Part shown: positions 13,831 through 45,646 of the stretch, one piece after another
Position numbering within the stretch: the stretch's first letter is position 1
Layout: every line of letters starts with the position of its first letter
DNA from: Thozetella sp. PMI_491
Lineage: Eukaryota > Ascomycota > Sordariomycetes > Chaetosphaeriales > Chaetosphaeriaceae
Direction of reading: 5' to 3'
Assembly (NCBI GenBank): GCA_021432635.1
Contig: MU270033.1
Location: 350,537 to 414,536, forward strand
DNA length: 64,000 nucleotides
The notes under the pieces: model-generated
Told to the model about the DNA's origin: nothing
Databases searched by the model: none
Seen by the model: only the letters and a program-made list of their open reading frames with translations
Position numbers and translations under genes: made by a program

Positions 13831-16800
13831 TTAGTTTTCGAAGAGGACTACCTCACCTCCGCCGCCTTCGGAGCTTACAATGCTCTCACTGCCACTGACA
13901 ATGCTCTCTGTCCCGACGTTGCTCTCCGTCCACTCGCTGCGCGTCTCGTCGTCCGAGTAATCCGAGTAGTCCTCGGTGCCAGTATAGCTCTCGGTTCCGG
14001 TTACAACGGTACCGCGGCTTGACCGCCTCAGCGTCTCGGTGTCGCTGTGGTCATCAGCGCCTTGAGCCGGGCCAGGTGGGTCCAGGTCGGGCTCCGAGTC
14101 AACGATCGACTCGGTGGAGGTGGGGACCATGCCCGCAGGCACAAGCGCGAAGGCGTCCCTGTCGTACTCGCTTCGGTGCTCCTCGTCGCTCTCGGGGAGG
14201 TTCATGTTCTCCTTGTCGCCGCCCAAGTCACCGTAGCCTTTGGCCGCCCCGGCGGCAGAAGGTCTACCTCCGGCCCAGCTCGACTTGCGGAGGGCACCAG
14301 CGCCACCGGGTGTGCGCACGCTTTGGCTGCGCTTGAAACCTCCGGCGGGGACGTTGCTGTTGATCTGGCTCAGCGACAGGATTCTGCGGGCAGAGCCGGC
14401 AGGGCTGGGCGGCGCGAGGTTCCGGTTGCCGGACATGGCCATTGCGATGGCGACGCTCTTTGGCTTGGTTTGCTTCTCAGCGCCGGCGTTATCGGCAACA
14501 GCTGCGTTGGGCTTCTTAGTCCGTTTGCGGCTCATCGCATCAGATCCGTTGGCCTTGGTGGCCTTGGTCATGAGCAAGACGCGCGAGTGGTCCATGACGC
14601 CCTCGAGTATACGCCGTTCGAGGGCCTCAGCACGAACGTCCATCTCGTGGAGCTCCTCGCGCCGGATGCGTAGTGCTGTCTCGAGCGAGGAAACGTCTCC
14701 GGCGAGGCGCATCTTCTGTCGGTTCATGGTCTCCTGTTCCCCACGTAGCTCCACGATGCTGTCCCTAAGGCGCGCTTCTTCGTCACGCAGATGGCTAAGG
14801 ATCGCCTCCTTACGCTCCTCCTCTTCGCGGAGGCGCTTCTCCCTGATCTCCTCTTCCTCACGCAGGCGGTTTGTCATCCTCTCGTGAAGAAGCTCTTCTT
14901 CCTCGCGGAGACGCTGGAGAATGGCGTCTGTGCGCTCTTCCTCTTCTCTAAGCCGTCGTTCCCTGCGCTCCTCCTCGTCCCGGATGCGGTTCTCGATGGT
15001 CTCCTTGAGCTTCTGCTCCTCTTCCCTGAGGCTCGCGAGGCTAGCTTCGACCTGTTCTTGCTGAGCTAGCTTGCGCTCGAGGCTAAGCGCCGTCTCCTGC
15101 AGCGTCTTCTCCCGATCCTCATGCTCATCAGCAATGCGCTGAGTCTGCGCGGTGAGGAACCCTGAGAGCTCTGAGGCTGTCGCATTGACCTGATTGTGGA
15201 CCTTGTCTAGCGTTTCAAGTTGTGAGAGCTGTGCGAGCGCCTTGTCTGTGACATCGCTTTGCGCAACAAGTCTGTCGAGCTTCTCGTGCACGACTGTGTC
15301 GTCATACTGTGGGATCTCAGGGAGCAGAGGCTGCTCCGGCGGCTTGGCCTCCTCGATCTTCTCCTGGATGGTGACAGTCGAGTTCTTGGAGTGCTCATAG
15401 TGTTGATCGACGATTGCGAGCACATCTTTGATGGCTTCCAGGATCTTGGGCTGGTACTCAACCACGTGGCCTTGGACGCCCTCGACGATACCGATGGCCT
15501 CCTTGACCTGGTCGCGGGTCATCTGGTGCTCTGCCTTGTCGTCGGAGTGGAGTTCGTCAGCCTTGGTGACCATGTCTTCGACGCGGTCGAAGACAGTCTT
15601 TGAGGCTTCCTCCATCTTCTCCATAGAGTCGGTAACAGCAGTTCCGAGGGTATCGATCAGAGACTTCAGCTCATCCGCGATGGCCTTGGTGCCAACCACG
15701 GCCGCCTCCATTTCGATGTCGCGGGCCTCACCCTTGGTGGCGCGCTCTTCCATGCTAGCCTGGAACTCTTCGTATTTAAGTACGAGCTCATCGATGCGTG
15801 CGTCGATCTTGCCGACGAGGGTGTCGGTCGTCTCCTGAAACTTTTCGTCCGTGTCAAGCTTGGCGCCGACGACTCCGGCCCTCGACTCTTCAAATTCGCC
15901 CTTGATCGTGTCAAACATCTCCTTCAGATCGTCACCGACGGTGGCATTCTTGGTCAGAGACTCGTTCATGGTTTCGAGAAGCTTGTTGACCGCACCCAGG
16001 CCCTCGGCACCTTCTTCCACCTTGCTCTTGATTGCACCTTGGAATTCTTCCAGGAAAGTTTTAACCTCGGTCACGCGGTCGCTGACACCCACAGTCTCAG
16101 CCTGGCGCTCCTCGAAGGCTTTAGCGTTGCTAGCGGCGTGAATGTCGAGGTGGTCTTTGAACTCCTTCACGAGCTGTTCTAGCCCCTTGAGGTCGTCCCT
16201 TGTTGGCAGAGAAGCGAGATCAGCCTTGACCATCTGTTCGACGCAGGACTTCACATCGAGACAGACTGCTTCGATGGCATCCACGTCGGTCTTGGTAACC
16301 TTCTCGGGATCCTCGAGGGCCTTCTCATGACGCTCCTTCATCTCGTCGAAGGCCGAGACGACCTGGGTAACGAGGGACTCGACGGCGTTGATGTCCTCCT
16401 TGCGAGAGAGCACGTCCATCTGGACAACAAGGTCTCCAATGCTACCCTTCGTCTCCAGGATGAGAGCTTCCAAAGTATCGATGTGGTCCTTCCGGACGGC
16501 CTGCTCTCCCTCGATGAGGTCATCAAGACAGGCCTTGGTGTTCCGGAGAATGGTCTCGATCGCCTGGACGTCCTCCCTCGACGCAGGGTCAGAGCTCGTG
16601 GGCGCGTCCTTGGTGGCCATTCCCGCAACGGACTCCTGCACATTGCGGATCATCTCTTCCATCTCGACGATGTCCTCTTTGTGAAGAGAGTCTTCCGTGG
16701 GAATAGTCGTGGGCTCCATGGCCTCGACCTTGATGCGGAGTTGAGTGATGAGCACCTCGAGGTTCTTGATGTCTTCATGCTTCAGGATATCGGCAGGGGC

Positions 16801-19800
16801 AGGGATGACCGCCTTGCTGGCCGCATCGTCGCTCACAGTAGCTAGCGCCTTGTCATTCTTGCCTTCTCCGCGAAGGCAGTCGATGTCGGATCGCACACTT
16901 TCGAGGCCTGACTTGAGAGCATCGAGAATCTCGTCATTGGCAGTCAAGTCGGTTGGCTTGTTGTGCAGCTTTTCTATGCTGGTGCGGATGTCGCCGAGTC
17001 CTTCGCTCAATGCGTCCAGTATCTCAGTCATGCCAGAGACAGGACGGGTGCTAATCTCAGTCCGGAGGCTGCTGAGCCCGTCTTGTAGAGCGTGGAGAAT
17101 CTCCTTGTAGTCGCCCTGCGGGCCAGCTGGCACAAGGGACGAATTCATGGCATCCCTCAATGCTTCTACCTCCTCCTTAAGCATGTCGCGGGAACTTGTA
17201 GCAACCAGGTCGGCAACTTCGTCCTGGAAGCTGTCGAGACGGTGAACCAAGGTGGCCATAAGCTGCTCTTGACCAGCTTGTCCAGAGACTCGCTCAACGT
17301 AGGCCACCATATCAGCACGCAGCTTCTCGAATCCGTCCTTCGTGGCGTCGAGGACTTGCTCCGTGTCCCTGCCGTTCGCAGAGACGTTCTGCTTTGACTC
17401 CTCAGAGACAGCCTTGAATTCATCCCGCATGAACTCCATAATCTCTTCTAGACGGCCCACGATCTCCTGGTTATTGCCGGAGGCGGATGGGATGAGGGCC
17501 TGGCCCGAAAGCAAATCGACATCTCGGAGGCCTTCCTTGACAGCAAGGACAAGCTCGTGGTGCGAATTCCCGGCGGGGAAGTCAAAAGATTGCAGTCCCT
17601 CTCGGACCGCGTCGATCATGTCGTCTCTGGATAGGTCGATGCTCCGGGAAGAGCTAGCAGCCGGGAGGCCGCCGAAGGACTCTATGCCCCTCTGGACTGC
17701 GTCCACCATATCTTCCTTGGAAAGCTCGGCGCCTATCGCTGATGGTGCGACGGGGAATTCGAACTCCTCCAAGCATTCTCTAACTGCCTCGAGGATTTCG
17801 TCGCGGGACAGCCCAGCCTGTGTCTCAACCCGAGGAGGCGGGAAGTGCTTGAGGCCTTCAATGACCGCCTTGAAGACCTCTTCACGCGTGGCGCCGACGG
17901 CCTGCTGTGGATGTGGGGCATAGGCCTCTAGGCCCTCCTGGAGGCAGGCGAGGATCTCATCTCGCTCAAGCCCGACATGGTGAGCCAGCTCGGGCTTGTA
18001 GGCTTCCCATGCATCCCGTATGGCATGGATGACATCATTGCGGCTTAGCTCCTGGCCGCTGCGGGTCGGCTTGTGCGCCTGTGTCTCGTGGAGTGCGGCT
18101 CGGATCGTGGTGTTGAGCCGGTCAAACTCAGCGCTCGTCTGCGCGCTCGTCGAAGAGGCAGATTGGCGGCGATGCTCACGTAGCAAGTTGTTCATGTGCT
18201 GCTTCAGCTCTTCCAGGCTCTGGTCGACAATACGAACCATTTCGGCTCCTGTAGCAGTCTCTTCTTTGCTGGAACTCTTCGTACCCATCTCATCCAGTCG
18301 TCGCCCAAGCTCTCTTCCCATGCCCAGGACTTCGCCGCGCAATTCCCGAACGAGCGCCTTGACTTCGGCGGTCAGGCCACCTCCTTGGGAGACACTGTCT
18401 TTGACAGTGCGGATGGCCTTCAGGACGTCCTCATTCACGAGGCCAGCTGGGGCCGAGGAGCGTCGGCTCTCCGCCTTCAGCAGCATGGCGGCGCGTGTAG
18501 TCATAGGTCCAGCCTCGGTGAAGCCAAGTTCCCTGGGGCGAGCACCATCGTCATCCTCGTCGAAGCTGAAGTTGCGTGAACGTCCGTAGCCTCCCCCATT
18601 ACCACCACTGCCACCCCCAGCGGCATGTACCATGGTAGTTTCCGTGTTGGCCTTTACGAATTGGATCAGTTCCTCCACCTTTGCACCGGTGGCAAGGCCG
18701 CACAGCTTGTCGGCGACCTCGGCGAGACGATCGATAAGTTTTTCCTGGCCCTCATGTGTGCCCATGTCCCGCAAAATTCTCTCGAGGATGGCAATGCTGG
18801 CTGCCGAATCGTGGCTGGCGAGTGAGGGGGTGCTAGCGGTGTCCCTATCTAGAGACGCCGAAAAGCTGTTAGGGGACGGAATCCGGGGAAGGGAGAACGG
18901 CCGCATAGCCTTGGAGATGCTAGGTGGCGGTGAGGAGGAGTGCGGCCTGGCTTCGAGCAAGAGGTGCCCGCCATATTGATCCCTGGTTCCCAGAGATGTC
19001 CTCGTCTTGTTATCCTGGATGAGGTCGCGCAGGCTCTTTCTGATATCTTCGTCCCTAGTATTGGTTGCTTCCTTCAGGCTCAGCAGGTCAGTGGCGTTGT
19101 CCCTGCTCCGACGGCTCAATTGAGACATCTCCTTCTGCAGAGAAGTGGCAATGTTGGTCAGACTCAAGATCTGGGTCGAGAGCGTCTCCAGAGACTGGGG
19201 AACGCGGACTAGCGCGTTGGAGGGGGTTGTATTCCCGTTGGTGATGTTAGCAAGAGGAGCTTCGGGCTCCTTGGGCTGTGGTGGCGTCGGGTTCGGCATG
19301 TTCTGAAGGGCCAGCATTGTGGCTGACTGAGGGGGGGTATTCTCGCCCAGGATACTTTGATGCGGACGGCGCACGATCGGCCGGACGATCGGAGTGAGGC
19401 TGGGGCCAGGTCGGGGCGACTGTACGATTGACCTCTCTTCTTTGTCGTCGGTGAAGGGATCTCGTTCTCGGTTCCGCGATGGCGTGGATGGCCGCTCGGT
19501 CTTCTCCTGTGGCCGAGGAGTCGAGTTCTGGGAGTCCCGGCCACTTTCAATCATCAAACTAAGATCCTTGACACCCGCGGGCTGGAGCGATTGCATCCGT
19601 CGATGAGAACCCCCACGGGAAGGACGCTCGGGGGCGATCTCGCTCATACGCTTGGTAAAATGCGGTACCAAGACTCCGCTGTTCTCACGTGCCTTCTCCG
19701 TCAGGGCGTTATGGGCGGCCTGGATTGCAGTTGATGTGCCGGCCCTGCTAGTGCCGACCTTCGGTGACTGAGGATTCAAGGGCAGCGGTGGTGGCGCCCG

Positions 19801-19857
19801 CTCGGGGTCTGAGCTATCCCACCTGCGCTTGTTTAGTCTCTGCCAGAGATACGACAT
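13831..19857 (-). CDS. 2008-residue coiled-coil protein with two internal repeat families
   Basis: One uninterrupted 6-kb frame. The N-terminal ~580 residues are Ser/Pro-rich and mostly disordered. Residues ~600-990 hold about ten degenerate copies of a helical module with consensus [DE][IVM][LIV]xA[VL]x[DE]G[LI] (for example RDDMIDAVREGLQSF and RDEILACLQEGLEAY). Residues ~1020-1240 hold about seven copies of a second module, [KR]xD[IV]xx[IL]Ex[LI] (KEDINAVESLV, REDVQAIETIL). Long coiled coil follows, with a highly charged REEEER-type helix at ~1600-1700 and an acidic Ser/Thr/Glu-rich tail ending VVLFEN. Similar long fungal proteins are often labelled 'chromosome segregation ATPase', but no Walker motif or SMC hinge is visible. 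It is more likely a structural scaffold; function unknown. An alternative start using an upstream exon (ATG near 20026) needs a poor AGAG acceptor and is less likely. Confidence 0.85.
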   Translation of the reverse strand: MSYLWQRLNKRRWDSSDPERAPPPLPLNPQSPKVGTSRAGTSTAIQAAHNALTEKARENSGVLVPHFTKRMSEIAPERPSRGGSHRRMQSLQPAGVKDLSLMIESGRDSQNSTPRPQEKTERPSTPSRNRERDPFTDDKEERSIVQSPRPGPSLTPIVRPIVRRPHQSILGENTPPQSATMLALQNMPNPTPPQPKEPEAPLANITNGNTTPSNALVRVPQSLETLSTQILSLTNIATSLQKEMSQLSRRSRDNATDLLSLKEATNTRDEDIRKSLRDLIQDNKTRTSLGTRDQYGGHLLLEARPHSSSPPPSISKAMRPFSLPRIPSPNSFSASLDRDTASTPSLASHDSAASIAILERILRDMGTHEGQEKLIDRLAEVADKLCGLATGAKVEELIQFVKANTETTMVHAAGGGSGGNGGGYGRSRNFSFDEDDDGARPRELGFTEAGPMTTRAAMLLKAESRRSSAPAGLVNEDVLKAIRTVKDSVSQGGGLTAEVKALVRELRGEVLGMGRELGRRLDEMGTKSSSKEETATGAEMVRIVDQSLEELKQHMNNLLREHRRQSASSTSAQTSAEFDRLNTTIRAALHETQAHKPTRSGQELSRNDVIHAIRDAWEAYKPELAHHVGLERDEILACLQEGLEAYAPHPQQAVGATREEVFKAVIEGLKHFPPPRVETQAGLSRDEILEAVRECLEEFEFPVAPSAIGAELSKEDMVDAVQRGIESFGGLPAASSSRSIDLSRDDMIDAVREGLQSFDFPAGNSHHELVLAVKEGLRDVDLLSGQALIPSASGNNQEIVGRLEEIMEFMRDEFKAVSEESKQNVSANGRDTEQVLDATKDGFEKLRADMVAYVERVSGQAGQEQLMATLVHRLDSFQDEVADLVATSSRDMLKEEVEALRDAMNSSLVPAGPQGDYKEILHALQDGLSSLRTEISTRPVSGMTEILDALSEGLGDIRTSIEKLHNKPTDLTANDEILDALKSGLESVRSDIDCLRGEGKNDKALATVSDDAASKAVIPAPADILKHEDIKNLEVLITQLRIKVEAMEPTTIPTEDSLHKEDIVEMEEMIRNVQESVAGMATKDAPTSSDPASREDVQAIETILRNTKACLDDLIEGEQAVRKDHIDTLEALILETKGSIGDLVVQMDVLSRKEDINAVESLVTQVVSAFDEMKERHEKALEDPEKVTKTDVDAIEAVCLDVKSCVEQMVKADLASLPTRDDLKGLEQLVKEFKDHLDIHAASNAKAFEERQAETVGVSDRVTEVKTFLEEFQGAIKSKVEEGAEGLGAVNKLLETMNESLTKNATVGDDLKEMFDTIKGEFEESRAGVVGAKLDTDEKFQETTDTLVGKIDARIDELVLKYEEFQASMEERATKGEARDIEMEAAVVGTKAIADELKSLIDTLGTAVTDSMEKMEEASKTVFDRVEDMVTKADELHSDDKAEHQMTRDQVKEAIGIVEGVQGHVVEYQPKILEAIKDVLAIVDQHYEHSKNSTVTIQEKIEEAKPPEQPLLPEIPQYDDTVVHEKLDRLVAQSDVTDKALAQLSQLETLDKVHNQVNATASELSGFLTAQTQRIADEHEDREKTLQETALSLERKLAQQEQVEASLASLREEEQKLKETIENRIRDEEERRERRLREEEERTDAILQRLREEEELLHERMTNRLREEEEIREKRLREEEERKEAILSHLRDEEARLRDSIVELRGEQETMNRQKMRLAGDVSSLETALRIRREELHEMDVRAEALERRILEGVMDHSRVLLMTKATKANGSDAMSRKRTKKPNAAVADNAGAEKQTKPKSVAIAMAMSGNRNLAPPSPAGSARRILSLSQINSNVPAGGFKRSQSVRTPGGAGALRKSSWAGGRPSAAGAAKGYGDLGGDKENMNLPESDEEHRSEYDRDAFALVPAGMVPTSTESIVDSEPDLDPPGPAQGADDHSDTETLRRSSRGTVVTGTESYTGTEDYSDYSDDETRSEWTESNVGTESIVSGSESIVSSEGGGGEVVLFEN

Positions 19858-20868
19858 AACGACGACGCCAACACGGCGTTGAAGCGTCCATGGCCGGCAT
19901 CGAGGAAAGAAATTTCACGTACATCGGAATCAGGGCTCGACCTTGGTCAGAAGAAGCGGAATGCTGGTGTCTCAGGGAGCGATCAGCCTCCCTGATGGCG
20001 GGCACGTCCCGCTCCACGGGAGGCATTGTGTATGGGAATTCAGTCGAAGTTCTACTGGTATGTTGATGTAGGGATCGCGCGGAATGGAAACGGGCGGCTG
20101 AGGTCGCCGTCGAATGACGCAGCCGAGACAAGAAAGAAAAAGGACGCGATGCCGGCTGGGTTAAACCTCCTCTCTGAAGAGATTAAAAACACGACGTGCA
20201 GTGGTAGGGCAGATGAGGGAAAGTCTCGGAACGGTAAGGTGGTGATCTATATGGGAATTGTTAAGTGGAGGGGGCTCGGGCACCAACAGAGACGTTGCAC
20301 TCGACCTGGCACCACTTTACGAGGTGCAAGGATGTGTTGATTGTTTTTGGTTGTCCCGAGCAACGGGCTAGCGCGACCGGGGCCCCCTGCCAATTGCGGT
20401 ACCGCCCGCCAAAACACCTTATCGATAAGCCCATCACACGTCACTGAGCTGCGCTGCAGGGTCAATCCCCCGCCAAATATTGAAACAGCGTGCCGTGGAC
20501 AAGCCTGAAATAGCCCTAGTGACCAAAAGCCTCGCAGTTTGGGATATACTGCCTGGCTGCACGCCATGTTGGTTTCTAGGTATCGTGGTTCTCAATAATA
20601 TAAGGAAAGTCTACTCTGATCCAATGCACCAATCATTTCACGGGGTTCGTGGCATGGTAGAGTTTTGTCCATCCAATTTATTGAGGTAGGAGCACCCAAG
20701 GCCACCCTCGTGTCGACCCCGGGGCTAGCCACGTGTACAAGGTGGAAAGAGCTGCCCGGGAAGGAGTCATTAGCTGAGCAGAAGCCATCTCGAAATATTA
20801 GAGCCTGTGGTTACCCAGAACACACGAGATCCAATTACCAAGATCAACTTCTCCGCCCGTGCCCAATC
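19858..20868. other. Intergenic, promoter of the coiled-coil gene
   Basis: This holds the upstream region of the 2008-residue gene and the 3' region of the YggS-type gene. A palindromic pair of GATA words lies at 20418-20429 and a GCGGTACCGC palindrome at 20396-20405. No gene is supported. Confidence 0.5.
20418..20429. promoter_or_regulatory. Palindromic double GATA-type site
   Basis: CTTATCGATAAG is a perfect 12-bp palindrome that contains CGATAAG on both strands. Fungal GATA factors of the AreA/NIT2 type bind such words, often in pairs. It lies about 560 bp upstream of the coiled-coil gene start. Binding is inferred only. Confidence 0.3.
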
Positions 20869-24093: not shown

Positions 24094-27000
24094 ATGGGGC
24101 TAGGGAAAAAGTTAAAGTCTAAATTTTTAGGGGACCGTGGCGATAAGGATGAGCAGGAGAAGGGGCTGCCGTCGCGGAGTAGCAGCCAAAGTGTAGCTGC
24201 AGCGCAACAGGCGCCGCCGTCGGAGATCAAGTCGACAGCGGTCGCGGCGGTGGCCGGTTCGAATGCCGCGGTGCCCGGCAGCAACTCGACAGTATCGAGC
24301 AATAATGGCCTCTCGGTAGTCAGCTCTACGTCCCTACATGCCCTCAAGACAACTCCGGAGGCGTCACACTCGACGGCCACCCTTTGGGACCAAGCGTATG
24401 CACAGCTGTCGAGCGAGAAGACCGACCTGATACAAGAATACCAGGAGCTCCTATCTAGAGCCCTTCAGAGCAGTGAGTGCACAGCGGCCCCGCGCACTCG
24501 ACCTTGCCGCTGAATTACGTCGTGACAGAGGACGAAGGCAGCGGACAGATCTCTGCGGACCCTGCCGAGCGGCGGAAGCAAATGGACGACATCATTCGCC
24601 TCGGCCTCGAGCACATGCAGAGCAAGCGGGTCAAGGTCACCGTGGCAGGTCATGAGATCGACCTCGCCGAGCAAGCAGACAATCTGATCGCGGCCGTCAT
24701 CTGGTCTAAGGACTGGATTGGCGACGCCGTCCAGGATGTCCCGTATGCCAATGCCGTCTGGGCCGGTGTTTCTCTCATTCTTCCTATCCTCACGAACCCC
24801 AGCGAGGTAGAGAAGGCTAACAAAGAGGGCTTCACCTACGTGACCTCGCAGATGCGCTGGTACCACGAGCTGGAGGTCCTGCTCCTGCCCCCTGACATGC
24901 TCGCGGGGGTGCGGGCCGATCTCGAGGGCCGGTTCGTGGGCCTGTACAAGCTCATCATTGACTTTCAGGTCCAGAGTGTCCTGAGGTGCTACCGTGGCCG
25001 CGCCAAGAACTACGTGCGCGGCGCCGCCAAGTGGGATGACTGGGGATCCATGCTCGATGGGATCAAGAGCGAGGAATCGCTCCTGGGGGCCAAGGTCACT
25101 GCCGAGACAGCGGCGGCCAGCCGTTCCCATCTCGCACACCTCGCGCGCGAGGCAGAAGCCGCACGTAGCAACGCCGAAGAGCTCGTTGCGGTGGCGAAGC
25201 AGCAGCTTGAGGTGCAGCGACAGAATGCTGCTACGAGCCAGCGCCTCCTCGAGGTCAGCCAGGAGCGGCTGGAAATGGAGCGCAAGACAGATGAAGAGCG
25301 CCGTGAGCGGGAGCTAAAGGCAATGTCTGAGAAGCAGAAGAAGCTGCACCAGTTGTTCCACGTTGCAGACTACGAAACACTGAAAGACCAGGTCCAGGAC
25401 CGGCTGGAAGGGACATGTCTTTGGCTCCTAGATCACCCCAACTACAAGGCATGGTGGAATGCCACCAACGGACCGCTGTTGGTGTCCGCAGATCCCGGCT
25501 GCGGGAAGTCCGTCTTGTCCAAATATCTCGTGGACCATGCCCTCCCGAGATCCGCCGCCATCTGCTACTTTTTCTTCAAGGACCGGCAGCAGACGACCAT
25601 AAAGGCGGCCCTCTGCTCCCTGATCCACCAGCTCATAGCCCAGCGGCCGACGCTCATTCGCCACGCCGAGGCCCAAGGGGTCAGCGAAGAGTCGCGCCTG
25701 TACAACAAGGACCTCTGGAGGATCTTGGAAGGCTCGTGCTCAGACCCGGACGCCGGAGACGTCATCTTTGTTTTAGACGCATTGGATGAATGCGATGGTG
25801 CCGACACGGAGCTAGGGTTCCTCGCCCGCACATTCAACCAGTACTTCTCGAGTGCGCAGTGCGCGAAAGGGAGGCTGAAGGTGCTCCTGACGAGCCGGCC
25901 GTACGAGGGGGTGACGCAGGAATTCGGCGAGCTCGAGGACAGCTTTCCGCTGGTCCGGATACACGGGGAGCAGGAGCTGGAGGCCATTGCCGGAGAGGTG
26001 GACAAGGTGGTCGAGTTTCGGCTCGCGAAGCTGGCCCGCAAGCGGCGGCTCTCGCCCAAGGCCGAGGACCACCTGCGGGCCAAGCTGCGAGAGACGCCGC
26101 AGAGGACGTACCTCTGGGTCCATCTCGTGTTCCGCTACCTGGAGAAGAACGTGTTCAAGAACACGCCGGCCGGCATCGACGATGTACTCGAGAACCTTGG
26201 TGAGGTAGATACGCTGCCCGGAAACATCTTTGACGTCTACGAGCGGACCCTGCAGCGGTCGCGTGACCCGGAAGAAGTGCGCAAGGCCTTGTCCATCGTT
26301 GCGTGTGCGTACAGTCCCCTCACCGTCGATCAGTTAAGCATCGCCCTCGCCGCCTCACCTGGGCAGGAGTGGTTCGACGACTGGGCGGATGAGGACCCGC
26401 GAGACTTTGAAGAACGTCTCCGGGACCTGACTGGCCTCTTGATCGTGCTTGTGAAAGGGAAGGTCATCTTCATCCACCAGACGGTCAAGGACTTCTTGCT
26501 GATGCAGCCGAGCGAGGGTGCCGCTTGCGATCCTCCAGTCGGCTGGAAACATTGCCTCACACTCCCTGGGTGCCATGAAGTCCTCAGCGTGGCCAGCATG
26601 TTGTTCCTGCAGTCCCGACTCGTCTTAGATTCGCTCCTTGAGGATCTGCCAGAGCAAGTAGGGCCTCCCGAGGATGGTACCAGCCGCAATAAATCTATGC
26701 TATACATGTTCATTCCGTACGCATCGCAACACTGGGTTGGGCACGTCCGGGATGCAGGCGGGCCATCAGCACAAGTCCGAGAGACATATGCTGCCCTCAT
26801 CGGCCCAAGAGGACCAATCTTGGAGACCTGGATCTTCGAGTGGATCCAAAGCGACTCCCTCAGCACCGCGGTCAAGATCCCTTACACCCTGCGGGCCATC
26901 GCGCAGATGTCGGTGCTCACGCTGCAGGCACTCCTGGGACACATGTTTAGCGTCCGCTCCAGCCTGGAAGCCGGGTTGGACATTGAGGGACGAACCGACT

Positions 27001-28436
27001 ATCAGGACCTCGAAGACCCCAACGATTACTTCTCGCCCCTCCGCGCAGCCTGCGTCGGCGGCCACGAGGACATCATAGACTACTTGGTGGCGCAGGGTGC
27101 GGATGTCGCCCATACGTGGCACGGGTCTCCTCTCGCACTGGACCTGATCAAGTGTTGTGAGGCGGCCCCTTGGCTGCCTCGGATACTAAAAACTATGGCT
27201 AGCCGTGGTATGGACATCAACCAAGCTGCGCCAGACGGCAACAGGCCACTCGCCTGGACGAGAAATACGGCAGTGCTACGGACGCTGTGCGAGCTCGGGG
27301 CAGACGTGAACGCCAGGCACCGGAGGGACCAGAACACGGCCATCTTCCTTCATAGCGACCTAGAGGGCGTTCAGATCCTGCTCGAGTTCGGGGCGTCGGT
27401 CGACCTCCAAAACGCTCTAGGAGACACCGTCCTACACCGGGCCGCAAAGCTGGACCCGAACGTCCTGCGCCTCGTTGTCGAAAAAGGGTGCCCCATCGAT
27501 GCCCAGAACGTGCTAGGCGAAACACCGATATTCAACATGTATAACATAGAGTGCCTCGCCTTCTTAGCAGCCCGCGGCGCCGATTTTTCCGTGGTGGACC
27601 GGAGGGGCCGGAATCCTCTCCACCACGCCGCCGGCGCCGAGCACATCGACTTTCTCGTCGAGCGCGGCGTCGACGTCAACCAAGCCGACGAGTCCGGGAA
27701 CACCCCGCTACACGCAGCCCGCGCCATGGAGACGGTGGAGGCGCTCCTGAAGCACGGGGCGCGCGTGGACGCGCGCGAGAAGCACGGCAGGACGCCCCTC
27801 ATGGACCTCGTCCTGCGCAACCGGCGGCCGGAGGGCCACGCCGTGACGCGGGTGCTGCTGCAGCACGGCGCCGATGTCAATGCCGCGGACGAGCGTGGGC
27901 GCACGGCGCTGCACGAGCTCGTCGCCATCATGGGCGACCACCTCGTGCCCACGCTGCGGGCCTTTGTGAGCATGGCGCGCGAGTTCCAGCTCAACGCCAA
28001 CGCCAGGGACCACCAGGGCAACACGCCGCTGCACGTCTTCTTCAGCACGCCCCGAGCGCAGATCTCGGCGGCGCTGCCGGGCGTGAAGCCCGGGAGAGGG
28101 GTGTCCCTGCCGCTGCGGGCGGCGGCGCGGCGGGAGGTGGTGGAGCTGCTGGTAGACGCGGGAGCCGACTTGGCGGCAACCAACGCGAGCGGCCGGACCG
28201 TGCTCCACGAGGCGTGCGCCTGCGCGCTGGAGACAGGAGGCGTCCAAGCCACGCGGCTGCGCACCGAAGCGGATACCACGCTTGCGACCAAGCTGCTAAT
28301 TACAAGGGGCGGAGATGTGCGCTGCAAGGACGCAGACGGCAACACGCCGCTGGATCTGTGCCAGAAGGAGGACATTCGCCAGAGGCTGATAGCCTTCGCC
28401 GATGGCGAGGCCTCAGCAAGCGTCGGCCGACGCTAA
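24094..28436 (+). CDS. NLR-like STAND receptor: NACHT N-terminal domain, NACHT NTPase, ankyrin repeats
   Basis: Exons 24094-24472 and 24529-28436 (56-nt intron, phase 1, junction LQS/K/DEGS) give 1428 residues. Order: a short basic and Ser-rich N-terminus (MGLGKKLKSKF); a helical domain at ~95-310 of the type found before fungal NACHT domains (NWD/NACHT_N-like, with LWDQAYAQL and WAGVSLILPIL); a coiled coil at ~317-404; a NACHT NTPase with Walker A DPGCGKS (448-454) and Walker B VIFVLDALDE (538-547); a winged-helix-like region; then about eleven degenerate ankyrin repeats from ~950 to ~1420 (for example GNTPLHAARAMETVEALLKHG). Fungal proteins of this build are regarded as NOD-like receptors for non-self recognition or programmed cell death. 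Ligand and effector output are unknown. The repeats differ from each other, unlike the near-identical repeats of fast-evolving incompatibility genes. Confidence 0.93.
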
Positions 28437-37264: not shown

Positions 37265-40200
37265 ATGTCGATTGACTTTCCCAAAGAAGAAGAGGCAGTC
37301 ATCCAGAGATGGCGAGAGATCAAGGCCTTCGAGCGTCAGGTACGCATTCGTCCAAGAGCCCAAGAGCCAGAGGCCGGAAGAAACCATTCCTAACGTCAAT
37401 CTTACCAGCTCGAGCTGTCTGAAGGCCGGCCCCTCTATACCTTCTACGATGGTCCTCCGTTCGCCACTGGCCTGCCGCACTACGGCCACTTGCTCGCCTC
37501 GACCATCAAAGACATCATCCCACGGTACTGGTCCATGAAGGGCTTCCACGTTGAGCGCAGGTTCGGTTGGGACACACACGGCCTTCCGATTGAACACGAG
37601 ATCGACAAGAAGCTTGGTATCTCCGGCCGAGATGCCGTCATGGAGCTTGGCTTAGAGAAGTACAATGCCGAGTGCCGTTCCATTGTGATGCGGTACCGTG
37701 AGGAGTGGCGCCTTACCATTGAGCGCCTGGGCCGTTGGATCGACTTCGACAATGATTACAAGACTATGGACCCGAAGTTCATGGAGTCGGAGTGGTGGGT
37801 CTTCAAGCAGTTGTTCGAGAAGGGCCAGGTGTACCAGGGTCATCGCGTGATGCCGTATTCCACGGCTCTCACTACCGCCTTGAGCAACTTCGAGGCCAAC
37901 CAGAACTACCAGGACGTGACCGATCCGGCCGTTGTCGTTTCTTTCCCACTCCTCTCGGATCCGGACACGGCCCTGCTTGCCTGGACGACGACGCCATGGA
38001 CTCTGCCTTCCCACACAGGCCTCTCGGTCCACCCCGACTTCGAATACGTCAAGCTCAACGACGAGAAGTCTGGAAAAAATTACATTATTTTGGAAAAGCT
38101 CATCGGAACACTTTACAAGGATCCTAAAAAGGCGAAGTTCAAGATCCTGGAAAAGTTCAAGGGCAAGGACATGGAGGGTTGGAAGTATGAACCGCTTTTC
38201 AAGTACTTTTACGACGATTACAAGGATATCGCCTTCAAGGTCCTCAACGCTACATACGTCACCGCAGACAGCGGTACTGGTATCGTCCACCAAGCCCCCG
38301 CGTTCGGTGAAGACGATTACAACGTCGCTATTCAGTACGGCATTGTGACGGAGAAGCGGCCGCCCCCCGACCCTGTCAACGAGACGGGTCACTTCACCGC
38401 GAAGATCAGCGACTTCGCCGGCATGCACGTGAAGGAGGCGGACAAGCACATCATCAAGTACCTCAAGGGCACTGGGCGTCTGATTGTCGACTCCCAGCTG
38501 AAGCACTCCTATCCCATGTGCTACCGCTCTGACACTCCTCTGATCTACAAGGCTGTGCCCTCATGGTTCATCCGCATCCCTACCATCATCCCGCAGATGT
38601 TGAACAACATCGAGGGGTCCCAATGGGTGCCGTCTTTCGTCAAAGAGAAGCGGTTTGCTAGCTGGATTGCCAACGCGAGGGATTGGAACGTCTCCCGAAA
38701 TCGATACTGGGGCACCCCCATCCCGCTCTGGGTGAGCGACGACATGGAGGAGAAGATTTGCATTGGTAGCGTCGCCGAGCTCAAGGAGCTCAGCGGATAC
38801 GAGGGCGAGATCGTCGATCTCCACCGCGACAAGATTGACCACATCACTATTCCAAGCAAGCAGGGCAAAGGCACGCTGAAACGGGTAGAGGAGGTCTTTG
38901 ACTGCTGGTTCGAGTCTGGAAGCATGCCGTACGCCAGCCAGCACTATCCCTTCGAGAACGTCGAGAAGTTCAAGAAGTCGTTCCCTGGTGACTTTATCGC
39001 CGAAGGTCTCGACCAGACGAGAGGCTGGTTCTACACCATGTTAGTTTTGGGCACTCACCTCTTTGGAGTCTCGCCATTCCAGAACTGTGTCGTGAACGGC
39101 ATTGTGCTCGCTGAGGATGGAAAGAAGATGTCAAAGCGTCTCAAGAACTACCCAGACCCCGGAATCGTCATGTCCAAGTACGGCTCTGATGCCCTCCGAC
39201 TCTACCTCATCAACTCGCCAGTGGTGCGTGCCGAGCCTCTCCGGTTCAAGGAGTCGGGCGTCAAGGAAGTCGTACAGCGTGTCCTCCTTCCGCTGTGGAA
39301 CAGCTACAAGTTCTTCGAGGGACAGGTGGCACTCCTCAAGAAGGTCGAGAACGTCGACTACGTATTCGACCCAAAGATGGAGTCGACGAACACCAACGTC
39401 ATGGACAAGTGGATTCTGGCCAGTTGCCAGAGCTTGCTCCAGTTCGTAAACGAGGAGATGAAGAGTAAGATACCACTGCTCTGGCCTTCGGGTAAGAGAC
39501 ACTCAACTGACCCAATACGCTAGGTTATCGGTTGTATACCGTCGTCCCCCGACTACTGAAGCTCATCGATTTCACCACCAATTGGTACATTAGGTTCAAC
39601 CGCAAGCGCCTCAAGGGAGAGAATGGACTGGAAGACACAACCCATGCCCTCAACACTCTCTTCGAGGTTCTCTACACCATGTGCCGAGGACTTGCGCCTT
39701 TCACGCCCTTCCTCACCGATACCATCTACCAGCGTCTTCTCCCTCACATCCCCAAGGAGCTCCAGGGAGAAGACACGCGCAGTGTTCACTTCCTGCCCTT
39801 CCCAGAAGTCCGGAGCGAGCTCTTCAATCCCGAAATCGAGCGACAAGTGGGGCGCATGCAAACCGTGATCGAACTGGTCCGATACTCGCGCGAGAAGAAG
39901 GCTATTGGGGTGAAGCAGCCCCTCAAGACTCTCGTTGTCATCCATCGTGACCAGCAGTACCTCGACGATGTGAAGTCGCTCGAGTCGTATATCCAGGAGG
40001 AGCTCAACGTGCGAGACCTGGTTCTGACGTCAGATGAGGACAAATACAACGTCCAGTACAGCATCACTGCGGATTGGCCTGTCCTCGGCAAGAAGCTCAA
40101 GAAGGACATGGCCAGGGTCAAGAAAGCCCTGCCGAATGTCACTAGTGAGCAGGCCAAGGGCTACATGCTCAACAAGACCATCGTCCTGGATGGTATCACG

Positions 40201-40632
40201 CTCGAGGAGGGAGATCTCGTCGTCAAGCGCGGGCTCAAGGAAGATGGCACGTCCCAGAGCATCGAGACGAATACCGACAACGATGTCCTCACTCTCCTCG
40301 ACACTGAGATCTACCCGGGGCTCGCCGAAGAAGGCATTGCGCGCCAGATCATCAACCGTGTCCAGAAGCTGCGCAAGTCAGCAGGCCTGGAACCCATCGA
40401 CGACATCAAGATGGAATACAAGGTGCTTTCGGACCCGGACAACATCGGACTGGCCAAAGTCCTCGACACGCACACAGCGGCCTTCGTCAAGGCGCTGCGC
40501 CGTCCGCTGGACAAGCATGAAGTGACGCAAGTGGAGGGGGAGATTCCTGCGGAGAAGCAAGAAGGTGTTATTGCCGAGGAAGAGCAGGAGATCCAAAAGG
40601 CCACGTTCCTGTTGCGATTGTTGAAGCTATGA
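37265..40632 (+). CDS. ILS1: Isoleucyl-tRNA synthetase, cytosolic
   Basis: Exons 37265-37339, 37409-39464 and 39524-40632 (introns of 69 and 59 nt) give 1079 residues, near the yeast Ils1 length. It is a class I synthetase that charges tRNA-Ile in the cytosol. Marks: HIGH-like motif HYGH at 49-52 within PPFATGLPHYGH, the editing-domain block after it (WTTTPWTLPSHTGL), WFIRIPTIIPQM, and KMSKR at 598-602 with K601 the active lysine. The anticodon-binding part follows the second intron (SYRLYTVVPRLLKLIDFTTN). The gene has no presequence: the N-terminus MSIDFPKEEEAV is acidic. A few bases into each intron an in-frame stop or shift shows that splicing is needed. Confidence 0.97.
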
Positions 40633-42234: not shown

Positions 42235-45200
42235 ATGGCCGCTCAACCCTCTCGGCCCCGCCCTGGCGGGGGACTCGGGCAGTCTTCCTCTTCACTCTCG
42301 GGCACCAGCCCCTACGCCGAACCCTTCTACTCGGCCGATGGTAGGCCTCACTGCGTGCCCTCGCGCTTGCGCCGAGCCCGGATGCCGCTGACACGTGCCT
42401 ACAGACATCCAAGTTCTCCACGACATCGTCGCGCTCGGAGAGGCCATCCTGCCCGCCCTCCCAGAGCGAGTGCGACTACCGACCAACGCGCTCTTTCAAG
42501 CCGCCGAGCAGGTCCTGCCGAATCACGGTTACGAACCCGACTTTACTCCAGCTCACATCTCCCGCTTCCTCTTCCGCCTTGGCGGCATACGTTCCCAAGG
42601 GTCACTATACGACAAGTTCGAATCCCTCCTAGGAGAACTGGGAATCAAACTTGCCTTCGACGACTCAGGCTCCAAAGACGAACAAATTACCGAGCAGGAC
42701 CTCTCGCCTCGTTCGGCTTCTGGTCGGGATAGCCACGCCGGCTCTCCGAGTCCTGTACGGCTCACCGTCCGACGGCGAGGATCCCACCCTGAGCACACAG
42801 ACCGAGTCTCTCTCTTGCAGCACCCAAGCCTTGGCCTGGGTCACCAAGTTAGGACGAGGTCTGTTTCCCCCCACTTACCTCTCCACTCACGCTCCTTGCT
42901 CAACAGGTTGCGCACAGGTCAGAATGCTGGCACTAATGCGCACCTTCGAGCCCTTCAAGACGCTGAAGAACGCATCCCTGATATCCCACCTCGTCCCCAT
43001 GCCCGCCCGTTCGCTCGCGACGCGCACGGAAACCCGCGCGATGAGACAGACGATGACACGACGCAGGATCCCCCCATCCCTACCAACCCTATTCGCCCTC
43101 ACATAGTGTCGAACGGCAAAATCAACGGCCATGGTGACGCCTACGCGGATGACGTGTCTCAAGATGACTTCACTCTTAACGATGATTCTATGGATGATGT
43201 CGATCTTCCGAAGCAAGACCTCACAGCCGAGGATGTGGACATTGGACCCGATGCTGTTGATTATGACAGCGAGATGCCCGAAAATCAGGTCAACCACTAC
43301 GACGAGGTTGCAGCTTCAGATGATCAACTAGACCTGCCGGCGAGCGGGCTTCCCATCAGGCTCGCTCCGCCCAGCGTCAGCCTAGCCGAGCTCGAGGCGA
43401 AAGCGAAGGCCTTCCAGCGCTATCGCGGTGATGCACCGTTGGGAGCCTTCCTCGGAAGATGGCACGAGAAGATGCTTGAGAAGCAAGAGATAGACGACGA
43501 AGAGGCTGAGTTCGCGGATCGATGTGATCTACTTGAATCAGCCGGCGCTGCTTTCCTCGAGTGGGGCAGCAAGGCCACTGCCGCTCGGAACAGGCGTGTT
43601 GGCACTGACGACTACGCCTCCTGGGTCGACCGGAACGAGCGCTTAGCGTCCCGTGCCTACACACTCCACGCTATGTTCAATGCGGTAGAGTATCTGAAGT
43701 GCCTGGCTAAGGACGAGGCCGAACGCACGGCTGTCGCCCGGAGACATGTCCTCAGGAAGCGATTGTTTTCCGGCTGGTCGCAGCAGCACAATGATGACCA
43801 AGCGAAAGTGAAGAACTTCGCCTTGAGCGAGGCAGTTGAGCACTGGACTAGTGCCACACTCGCCGTCCAAGTCCGGAACAATGCCATCGATCACGAGCGG
43901 AATACGAGGGATGCTCAGGAAGCAGTCGGCATTATGCGGTCGGTCCTGAAGGGCAGGCTGGCCGACTTCATGTACACGTACAGAGCCCGGGAAGAGGCGG
44001 TTGAGAAATGGCAAAGCAAGAAGCTTGAAGCGGACAATGAGGAGGAAGTCGCCGTCTTCTGCGAGACCCGCATGCCTGTCATAGCCGCAGTTAACAACTG
44101 GCACGACGCTCTGCGAGCCATTGTCGGCCACGTCTCGGAGGTTGCAAGCGAGGCCGAGCCAGAGTTGGAGCCAATAGACGACCAGGAGGAAAGCCGCAAT
44201 GGGCAACCCACGGCGCTTGAGTCACGGCTGGAGCAGCACTGCCAGCGGAGAGACGAGGAGGCCAAACACCAAGCTATTTCCTTGATGCGGCAACGCGCCC
44301 AAGAATCGATAGTCCTGCAGAAGTATGCTGATAAGGACTCTCTCGCCGAGTCCGTAGCGCACTGGGACCGAGAGCGGAAGCTGAAGACGTTCGTCAGGGC
44401 CCAGCAACGACAGGACCAAGCCGAAACCGTCAAGAGGCTCATTCTCGCGGAGCGTGAGAGTTGGTACGCGAAGGAGACAAGACGAGATGACCTACACGAG
44501 GCCGTAGACGCATGGGATTCCCTTGCCAAACAATCGCAGCAGGCCTCGGTACAGGAGCAAGCGAACGCCGACATGGTGTGTGGATACTACAGAAAGGCCG
44601 ATGCCCTCGAGATCTGGCTCGATAGAGTCGAGGAGATTGACCGGGAGAAGCAGAGAGCAAAGGCTGTTGATCTTGTTCGCGCTGCCGGCCCTCCGCTTAG
44701 TTCCTGGAGGGCCAAGACCCGCGACGAATTTTTCCGCAACAACGCATCATGTCGAAAAGCCGACGAGACCTTCAGTCTCGGGGAGAGCGAGAGTGTGACT
44801 GCCAGTTGGAGGCGGGTGGCACGCGAGAAGTATACCCGCAGCATGGCGGAACGATACCGCGATGCACGACGGGCCGAGAAGAGAGAAAAAGCTCTAGAGG
44901 CCCTAGGTGCATGGCACCAAGCGTGCGCTCGCAGTTACCAGCTTGGAGCATTGGCCAAGTACCACCGCGAGAGCGCGGAATGGGAAGCGGCCCAGAAGGG
45001 CGTTGATGACTGGCACATGTTTACGGGTAACGCCAAAGTGTTGCGCGAGGGCGCTGATCTGGCCAATCAAGAGGTATATGTCGACGAGTGGAGGGATCGC
45101 GCCGTGGACGTGAGACAAAACAAAGAGGATGCGGTGGACTATGACCACGAGCAGAGCTGTGCTAAGGCCGTCGCCGACTGGGAGCGCAAGACCCTGGAGC

Positions 45201-45646
45201 TTGATGGGCCGAAGCATACCGTCACCAAGGTGCAGCAGCGAAATGACCAACGCGTTGCCCAGGAAGCCATCAGCGCCTGGCATCAGCAGGCTGTACCAGA
45301 TGCACCCTCGTATCGCACGAGCATCGCCGCAAGACGCAGCGCTCGGCGGAGCACACGTGCGTCTACTTCAGCAGAGCCGCCTGCCCTGGTACCCCTCCAG
45401 CCACAACCCGAGCCGGCATTCAACGCCTTCGACGACGATCCGCTCGATGTTACAGACCTCGTCGCCAGCACTCCGGTGCGACGCAGCGCCCTGGCACCAT
45501 ACCGAGGGGCAGCCACCACCACGCCTTCGGCTATCCTCCCATCGCCGGCTGAGCGGGAACTTCGGCGCACTTATGTGGACCGCCATGTCATGTTTGCGGG
45601 CATCGAGGAAGAAGAGGAAGAGGGCTCGGGCTACTGGGAAAGCTAA
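42235..45646 (+). CDS. SFI1: Sfi1-like spindle pole body protein (centrin-binding)
   Basis: Exons 42235-42340 and 42405-45646 (64-nt intron; junction YSAD/DIQVLHDIV) give 1115 residues. The N-terminal domain (DIQVLHDIVALGEAILPALP to ~residue 110) is the part conserved in fungal Sfi1. After an acidic low-complexity middle (~200-330) comes a long helix-rich region from ~365 with recurring tryptophans (LGRWHEKMLEKQ, LFSGWSQQHNDDQ, VEHWTSATLAVQ, VNNWHDALRAIV, LGAWHQACARSYQ), each marking a centrin-binding repeat. In yeast, Sfi1 with Cdc31 forms the half-bridge needed for spindle pole body duplication. The C-terminus is basic, then acidic. The ATG at 42235 fits the splice phase; an earlier ATG at 42210 is in another frame. 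A further intron near 42862-42906 cannot be excluded, as the frame stays open there. Confidence 0.9.

Follow-up and report, generated by a model that had tools for sequence, protein, structure and literature searches.

A large predicted protein of Thozetella sp. PMI_491 with two tandem arrays of short helices and a possible scaffolding role

The analysed window comprises 64,000 nucleotides of Thozetella sp. PMI_491 (contig MU270033.1, positions 350,537 to 414,536). A 2008-residue protein, reported by the first-pass annotation of this DNA, is encoded on its reverse strand by a 2008-codon open reading frame with GC1/2/3 of 0.645/0.423/0.704. Neighbours in the window are a seryl-tRNA synthetase, an AA9 enzyme, Sfi1 and a NACHT-ankyrin gene. 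The NACHT-ankyrin protein (1319 aa, 24477-28433, forward strand; NACHT_N at 1.7e-46) is of a kind tied to fungal non-self recognition. The Sfi1-like spindle pole protein (42395-45643, forward strand; PF08457 at 3.1e-53) is another helical-repeat protein. A class I aminoacyl-tRNA synthetase (tRNA-synt_1; Anticodon_1) extends across the adjacent frames 37490-39520 and 39532-40629 of the forward strand, a split possibly caused by an intron. The features of the 2008-residue protein and its gene are listed below; residue numbers throughout are those of the 2008-aa frame.

13831..19857, reverse strand: open reading frame of 2008 aa, residue 1 at 19857; in the gene it would form the last exon
19923..20026, reverse strand: probable first exon, MPPVERDVPAIREADRSLRHQHSASSDQGRALIP followed by two bases of a codon that the intron splits
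19823..19922, reverse strand: probable 100-nt intron, GTACGT...GCGCAG, with GT...AG ends
18463..19857, reverse strand: Ser/Pro/Arg-rich N-terminal region, residues 1-465 (S 11.2%, P 9.5%, R 9.5%)
17512..18048, reverse strand: array A, seven early units, residues 604-782, starting at 608, 634, 660, 687, 716, 746 and 768
17314..17370, reverse strand: weak unit of array A at residue 834; window pair 833/975 scores 50
16888..17115, reverse strand: array A, three late units (919, 945, 976) of the longer form EILxALxxGLxx[LIV]RxxI
16135..16782, reverse strand: array B, seven units at residues 1027, 1060, 1094, 1123, 1153, 1189 and 1220
15358..16125, reverse strand: region judged coil-like by eye, residues 1245-1500, Pro-free for 225 residues
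14767..14991, reverse strand: C repeat, residues 1623-1657 and 1663-1697, two copies, period 40, score 118 over 35 residues
13834..14550, reverse strand: Ser/Gly-rich acidic tail by composition, residues 1770-2008

The start codon of the 2008-aa frame is probably wrong and the true start would lie upstream. There, a probable exon with an ATG at 20026, comprising 34 codons and two bases, is in frame and open once the intron is removed. By arithmetic the spliced protein would have 2031 residues (numbering +23), and MSYLWQRLNKR, the first residues of the frame, would be intronic. Both the N-terminal region 1-465 and the tail 1770-2008 appear disorder-like, as judged from composition. The tail holds a single KEN triplet at residue 1882 (14206-14214, reverse strand), followed by an acidic stretch; it could be an APC/C degron. 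The C repeat sits inside a highly charged C-terminal coil, the halves of which align with z 8.2.

Array A consists of 11 copies of an amphipathic helix of 15-17 residues, with starts set by eye and profile. The first-pass annotation had described a ten-copy helical repeat at residues 600-990, which do correspond to the positions it named (16880..18060). The repeat is real, and the count was low, as there are 11 starts, ten clear ones and the weak one at 834. Distances between the first seven units are 26, 26, 27, 29, 30 and 22 residues; the spacing first given (about 30) was slightly too high. In the whole A set the spacing is 22-86 residues. The six linkers between the early units have 5-13 residues each and are mostly rich in Pro, Gly, Ala and Ser. 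A typical unit begins with acidic residues, followed by two large aliphatics; then come Ala, present in 10 of 11 copies, another large aliphatic, Gly and a Leu-like residue, with an aromatic or aliphatic one three positions later. Nine of the 11 copies carry the Gly four residues after the Ala, the remaining two Ala and Cys. The consensus first proposed, [DE][IVM][LIV]xA[VL]x[DE]G[LI]xx[FYIV], matches just two places as written and nine in a relaxed form.

The repetition is significant in several comparisons. Without any picking of copies, 194 pairs of ungapped 18-residue windows within residues 600-1000 score at least 30, compared with expected means of 1.2 (60 shuffles) and 1.3 (60 block shuffles). 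Gapped alignment of the two halves of early A (596-709 vs 710-790) scores 84 (z 12.1), a value reached by none of 500 shuffles (maximum 44) and none of 500 block shuffles (maximum 45). Hence the self-alignment, on which the first-pass annotation had let its repeat depend, is significant. With a leave-one-out profile, all 11 copies outscore each of the 1680 non-member windows of the protein, the margin being thin for unit 768 (7.6 vs 7.1). When the 22 residues of each copy were shuffled 2000 times, no shuffle reached ten of the 11 copies and one reached 608, with 834 placed one residue off register. Against a profile made from all 11 copies, ten score at least 18 bits. Unit 834 scores 0.9 one residue off register and, in register, 12.4 (combined A+B profile) and 8.2. 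Early and late units align with z 5.8 (56 vs 53 for the best shuffle), early A and the middle region 790-905 with z 5.1 (59 vs 55), and late A and the same region with z 5.0 (53 vs 50); each score was reached by 0/500 shuffles, with a small margin. In an alignment holding the weak copy one residue off register, identity to the first copy ranges from 5 to 33%. No direct DNA repeat of at least 24 bases was found in 16050-18100, so the A copies look old.

Array B follows directly, spanning residues 1027-1240. Each of its units has 21 residues without gaps, one invariant Glu, and aliphatic or hydrophobic residues at 3-4 heptad spacing. Unit starts are 29-36 residues apart and linkers 8-15 residues long. 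The two halves of B align with a score of 80, which none of 500 shuffles reached (maximum 68). In the leave-one-out comparison each unit scores above all of the 1757 non-member windows, although the margin is thin for two units (10.5 vs 9.2; 7.7 vs 6.4). Shuffled per copy (1000 each), one shuffle reaches each of two copies and none the other five. As controls, the adjoining coil-like stretch 1246-1380 vs 1381-1510 gave z 3.6 and array B vs residues 1246-1500 gave z 3.4, each reached by 2/500 shuffles. Thus, part of the B score may be heptad composition. Array A aligns with the C-terminal coil at z -1.0. The first-pass annotation, whose interpretation as a whole is partly supported, had not noticed array B, the repeat in the C-terminal coil or the likely exon upstream.

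The two arrays are not demonstrably related. Late A copies compared with B score above all 400 column shuffles; for early A the likeness to B is weak, reached by 17/400 column shuffles and in a different register. A profile of A alone fails to pick out the B copies, register 0 being no better than register +7. Gapped alignments of A and B are near chance (z 1.8, 30/500 shuffles; z 0.3, 163/500), and a profile comparison with hhalign (alignments A1 and A2) gave a probability of 3.3%. Both arrays place acidic residues where the helix starts and have a heptad-like face. A common origin was set aside on the A-only profile, the tie with register +7 and the near-chance gapped alignments, and these results point to a shared heptad pattern as the source of the likeness. 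A single array of 22 units, drawn from a combined A+B profile, was also rejected: 17 of the 22 were the seeds of the profile itself, and the threshold at which 22 units were kept is also passed by shuffles, about 0.6 times per region. Another 17 candidate places were scored with the A+B profile and none was counted as a unit. Places 476, 538, 798, 864 and 890 are similar by eye, yet score at most 0.1, and place 798 lines up in alignment A5. Residues 1260, 1313, 1392 and 1421 are weak matches to this profile; together with 1450 they score 2.3 to 6.3. Self-searches with hhalign and blastp returned no rows for the repeats, nor for the controls.

The first-pass annotation knew of no named domain with this consensus, and our searches agree with it. 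For the whole protein neither Pfam (E up to 10) nor NCBIfam (E up to 1) gave a match above cut-off or an enzyme family; sub-cut-off matches in Pfam were Cohesin_HEAT (E 1.2), FliD_N (3) and HSBP1 (6.1). No Pfam family, named repeat families included, was found for the 11 A copies, while one of the seven B copies matched Ribosomal_L12_N at 0.044, taken as chance. The whole protein had no PDB match at E up to 0.1. Profile searches of the PDB at E up to 10 yielded 16 and 6 distinct sequences with best E values of 0.12 and 0.96, none of them significant, and two of the best three matches for A are designed proteins. The ubiquitin-interacting motif has the consensus hydrophobic-x-x-Ala-x-x-x-Ser-x-x-acidic. 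It had 0 matches in the A copies and no Pfam match; its Ser position is Gly in 9 of the 11 copies, Ala in one and Cys in one. The cortical anchor Num1/ApsA bears a C-terminal PH domain, and Pfam at E up to 10 showed no PH family here. The parts searched against the organism's own genome, residues 600-993 and 596-1250, occur there at one place (72.3 Mb, 157 contigs; 596-1250 at E up to 10, best candidates scored only). Six short peptide patterns of the protein, scanned against viral and prokaryotic contig collections, matched 16 and 22 times, and no match was confirmed as a homologue. No description of the repeat was found in those parts of the literature that were accessible, which does not prove it unpublished.

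The helical nature claimed for the repeat agrees with structure prediction. In a single-sequence model of residues 596-1250, which is of low confidence (pLDDT 44.4, pTM 0.24), a helix starts at most two residues from the expected place at 15 of the 18 A+B units; 12 of 5000 rotations reach 15 matches. The units without such a helix start are 976, 1124 and 1154, of which 1124 and 1154 are B units in A register numbering. A three-unit model built on four rows taken from the protein itself (pLDDT 59.2, pTM 0.39, again low confidence) has three separate helices, with 10-residue blocks at pLDDT 59-69 and linkers mostly under 50.

Several known systems may be compared, the Spitzenkoerper scaffolds and the tether Leashin, both described below, being the closest analogies to the role proposed here. 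Sfi1 (PF08457) likewise has tandem single-helix units, and its centrin-binding repeats lie about 30 residues apart. In contrast to the window's own Sfi1 gene, recognised at 3.1e-53, the protein described here has no Pfam match. SPZ-1, JNS-1, SPA-2 and LAH-2 are described as scaffolds of the Neurospora hyphal tip (Spitzenkoerper) which assemble via coiled coils (PMC7275032), and SPZ-1 (NCU02049) as a Spitzenkoerper cargo adaptor (PMC7275032; PMC5309816). By description SPZ-1 is similar, being a coiled-coil scaffold of multicellular ascomycetes with separate coiled-coil regions that bind motor and cargo; it is a possible orthologue. However, the accessible descriptions of SPZ-1 mention no tandem array of short helices, as present here.

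Leashin (LAH), described as the Woronin-body tether, is comparable in being a tether of fungi that is large and acidic and contains internal repeat regions (PMC2690989). Its N-terminal 344 residues are reported to bind Woronin bodies, and its size ranges from 5,936 aa in A. nidulans to 10,821 aa in Neurospora, where it is actually two transcription units (PMC2690989), compared with about 2,000 aa here. The Leashin repeats differ in being rich in Pro, Leu and acidic residues (PMC2690989). The consensus of its R1 and R2/R3 repeats matches our protein at chance level or nearly so, as 46/100 and 5/100 shuffles reach the best scores. A membrane-spanning region is described near the C-terminus of Leashin (PMC5345055), whereas simple hydropathy detected no transmembrane-like segment in our protein (best 19-residue mean 0.97). 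The septal pore-associated (SPA) and SPP proteins are alike by description, since long disordered regions occur in many of them and they are located at the septal pores of multicellular ascomycetes (PMC10023807, PMC5345055). Spa10 differs, having been chosen partly for predicted transmembrane regions, of which hydropathy finds none here.

With about even confidence we propose that the protein is a large self-associating cytoplasmic scaffold or tether of this filamentous fungus, acting as a multivalent linker. Its layout comprises disorder-like ends, a central part with array A (11 helices) and array B (7 three-heptad helices), and then the long charged coil. The A helices alternate with linkers, and at the start of most of them stand a polar cap and acidic residues. 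Heptad-spaced hydrophobic helices and the lack of a recognised enzyme domain fit the general kind of a coiled-coil scaffold, with scaffolding itself as the putative role. The flexible ends would flank a rail of short helices, and the coil would serve self-association. Together, coil and array B may drive self-association into dimers or higher forms. In the A helices the hydrophobic face (I-V-L-F) could offer many weak, equivalent docking sites, either for the protein itself or for a partner. A cortical, septal or hyphal-tip structure would be the place of action.

It is conceivable, if less probable, that each A unit is an independent short linear motif which folds on binding a specific globular partner and is not a self-association helix. 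This reading overlaps the scaffold proposal and could hold inside it. The shortness of the units (15-17 residues) and the mostly Pro/Gly/Ala/Ser-rich linkers suit it, and so does the likeness of small flanking positions (Ala 10/11, Gly 9/11), although the latter may reflect common descent instead of selection. In the leave-one-out comparison each of the 11 A copies outscores every window of the coil 1245-1770, where the best scores are 0.4 to 7.7. Against this, when profiles are made from just the early or just the late A copies, the best scores in the C-terminal coil are slightly positive (1.5 and 5.1). For array A the candidate docking motif would be roughly [ST]-[RK]-[DE]-[DE]-[IVM]-[LIV]-x-A-[VL]-x-[DE]-G-[LI]-x-x-[FYV]. 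That A is an undescribed helical docking motif with a dedicated filamentous-fungal partner and B a second, independent one, both forming multivalent rails that space partners along a hyphal-tip or septal scaffold, seems to us rather unlikely.

We are similarly doubtful that the repeats are a degenerate, drifting helical spacer and serve no function themselves. Identity of 5-33% to the first copy and irregular spacing (22-86) would be expected of such a spacer, but the Ala, Gly and hydrophobic positions are largely fixed although no DNA repeat of at least 24 bases remains, which suggests selection on the pattern. Very unlikely is a role of A and B as lipid-binding amphipathic helices which, like those of apolipoproteins or perilipins, coat a membrane or organelle. 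The helices are tandem, amphipathic and partly Pro-punctuated, with mean hydrophobic moments of 0.42 (A) and 0.43 (B), as this role would have them. Yet their mean net charge is -2.3 in A and -2.7 in B, negative in 17 of 18 helices and zero in one, and the discrimination factor is at most 0.39 in 18/18. The combination of amphipathic moment and negative charge suits contact with protein better than contact with an acidic membrane. Practically no credence is left for a chromosome segregation (SMC-type) ATPase, the generic label that, according to the first-pass annotation, similar proteins carry. Long coiled-coil-like content and nothing else speaks for it, neither Pfam (E up to 10) nor NCBIfam (E up to 1) returned an SMC family, and no Walker A motif or ABC signature was found, in line with the first-pass remark that no ATPase motif is visible, so that this label is unsupported. 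One paper gives the same reading to another fungal hypothetical protein from an 'Smc' region (PMC11719821).

For the proposed scaffold the meaning depends on the units. Should they be docking sites, the misleading 'ATPase' label would give way to names for two unlisted repeat families, and the protein would be a ready test case for the way in which large polarity or septal assemblies of filamentous fungi are built from multivalent helices. As just a coiled-coil spacer, the protein would be ordinary.
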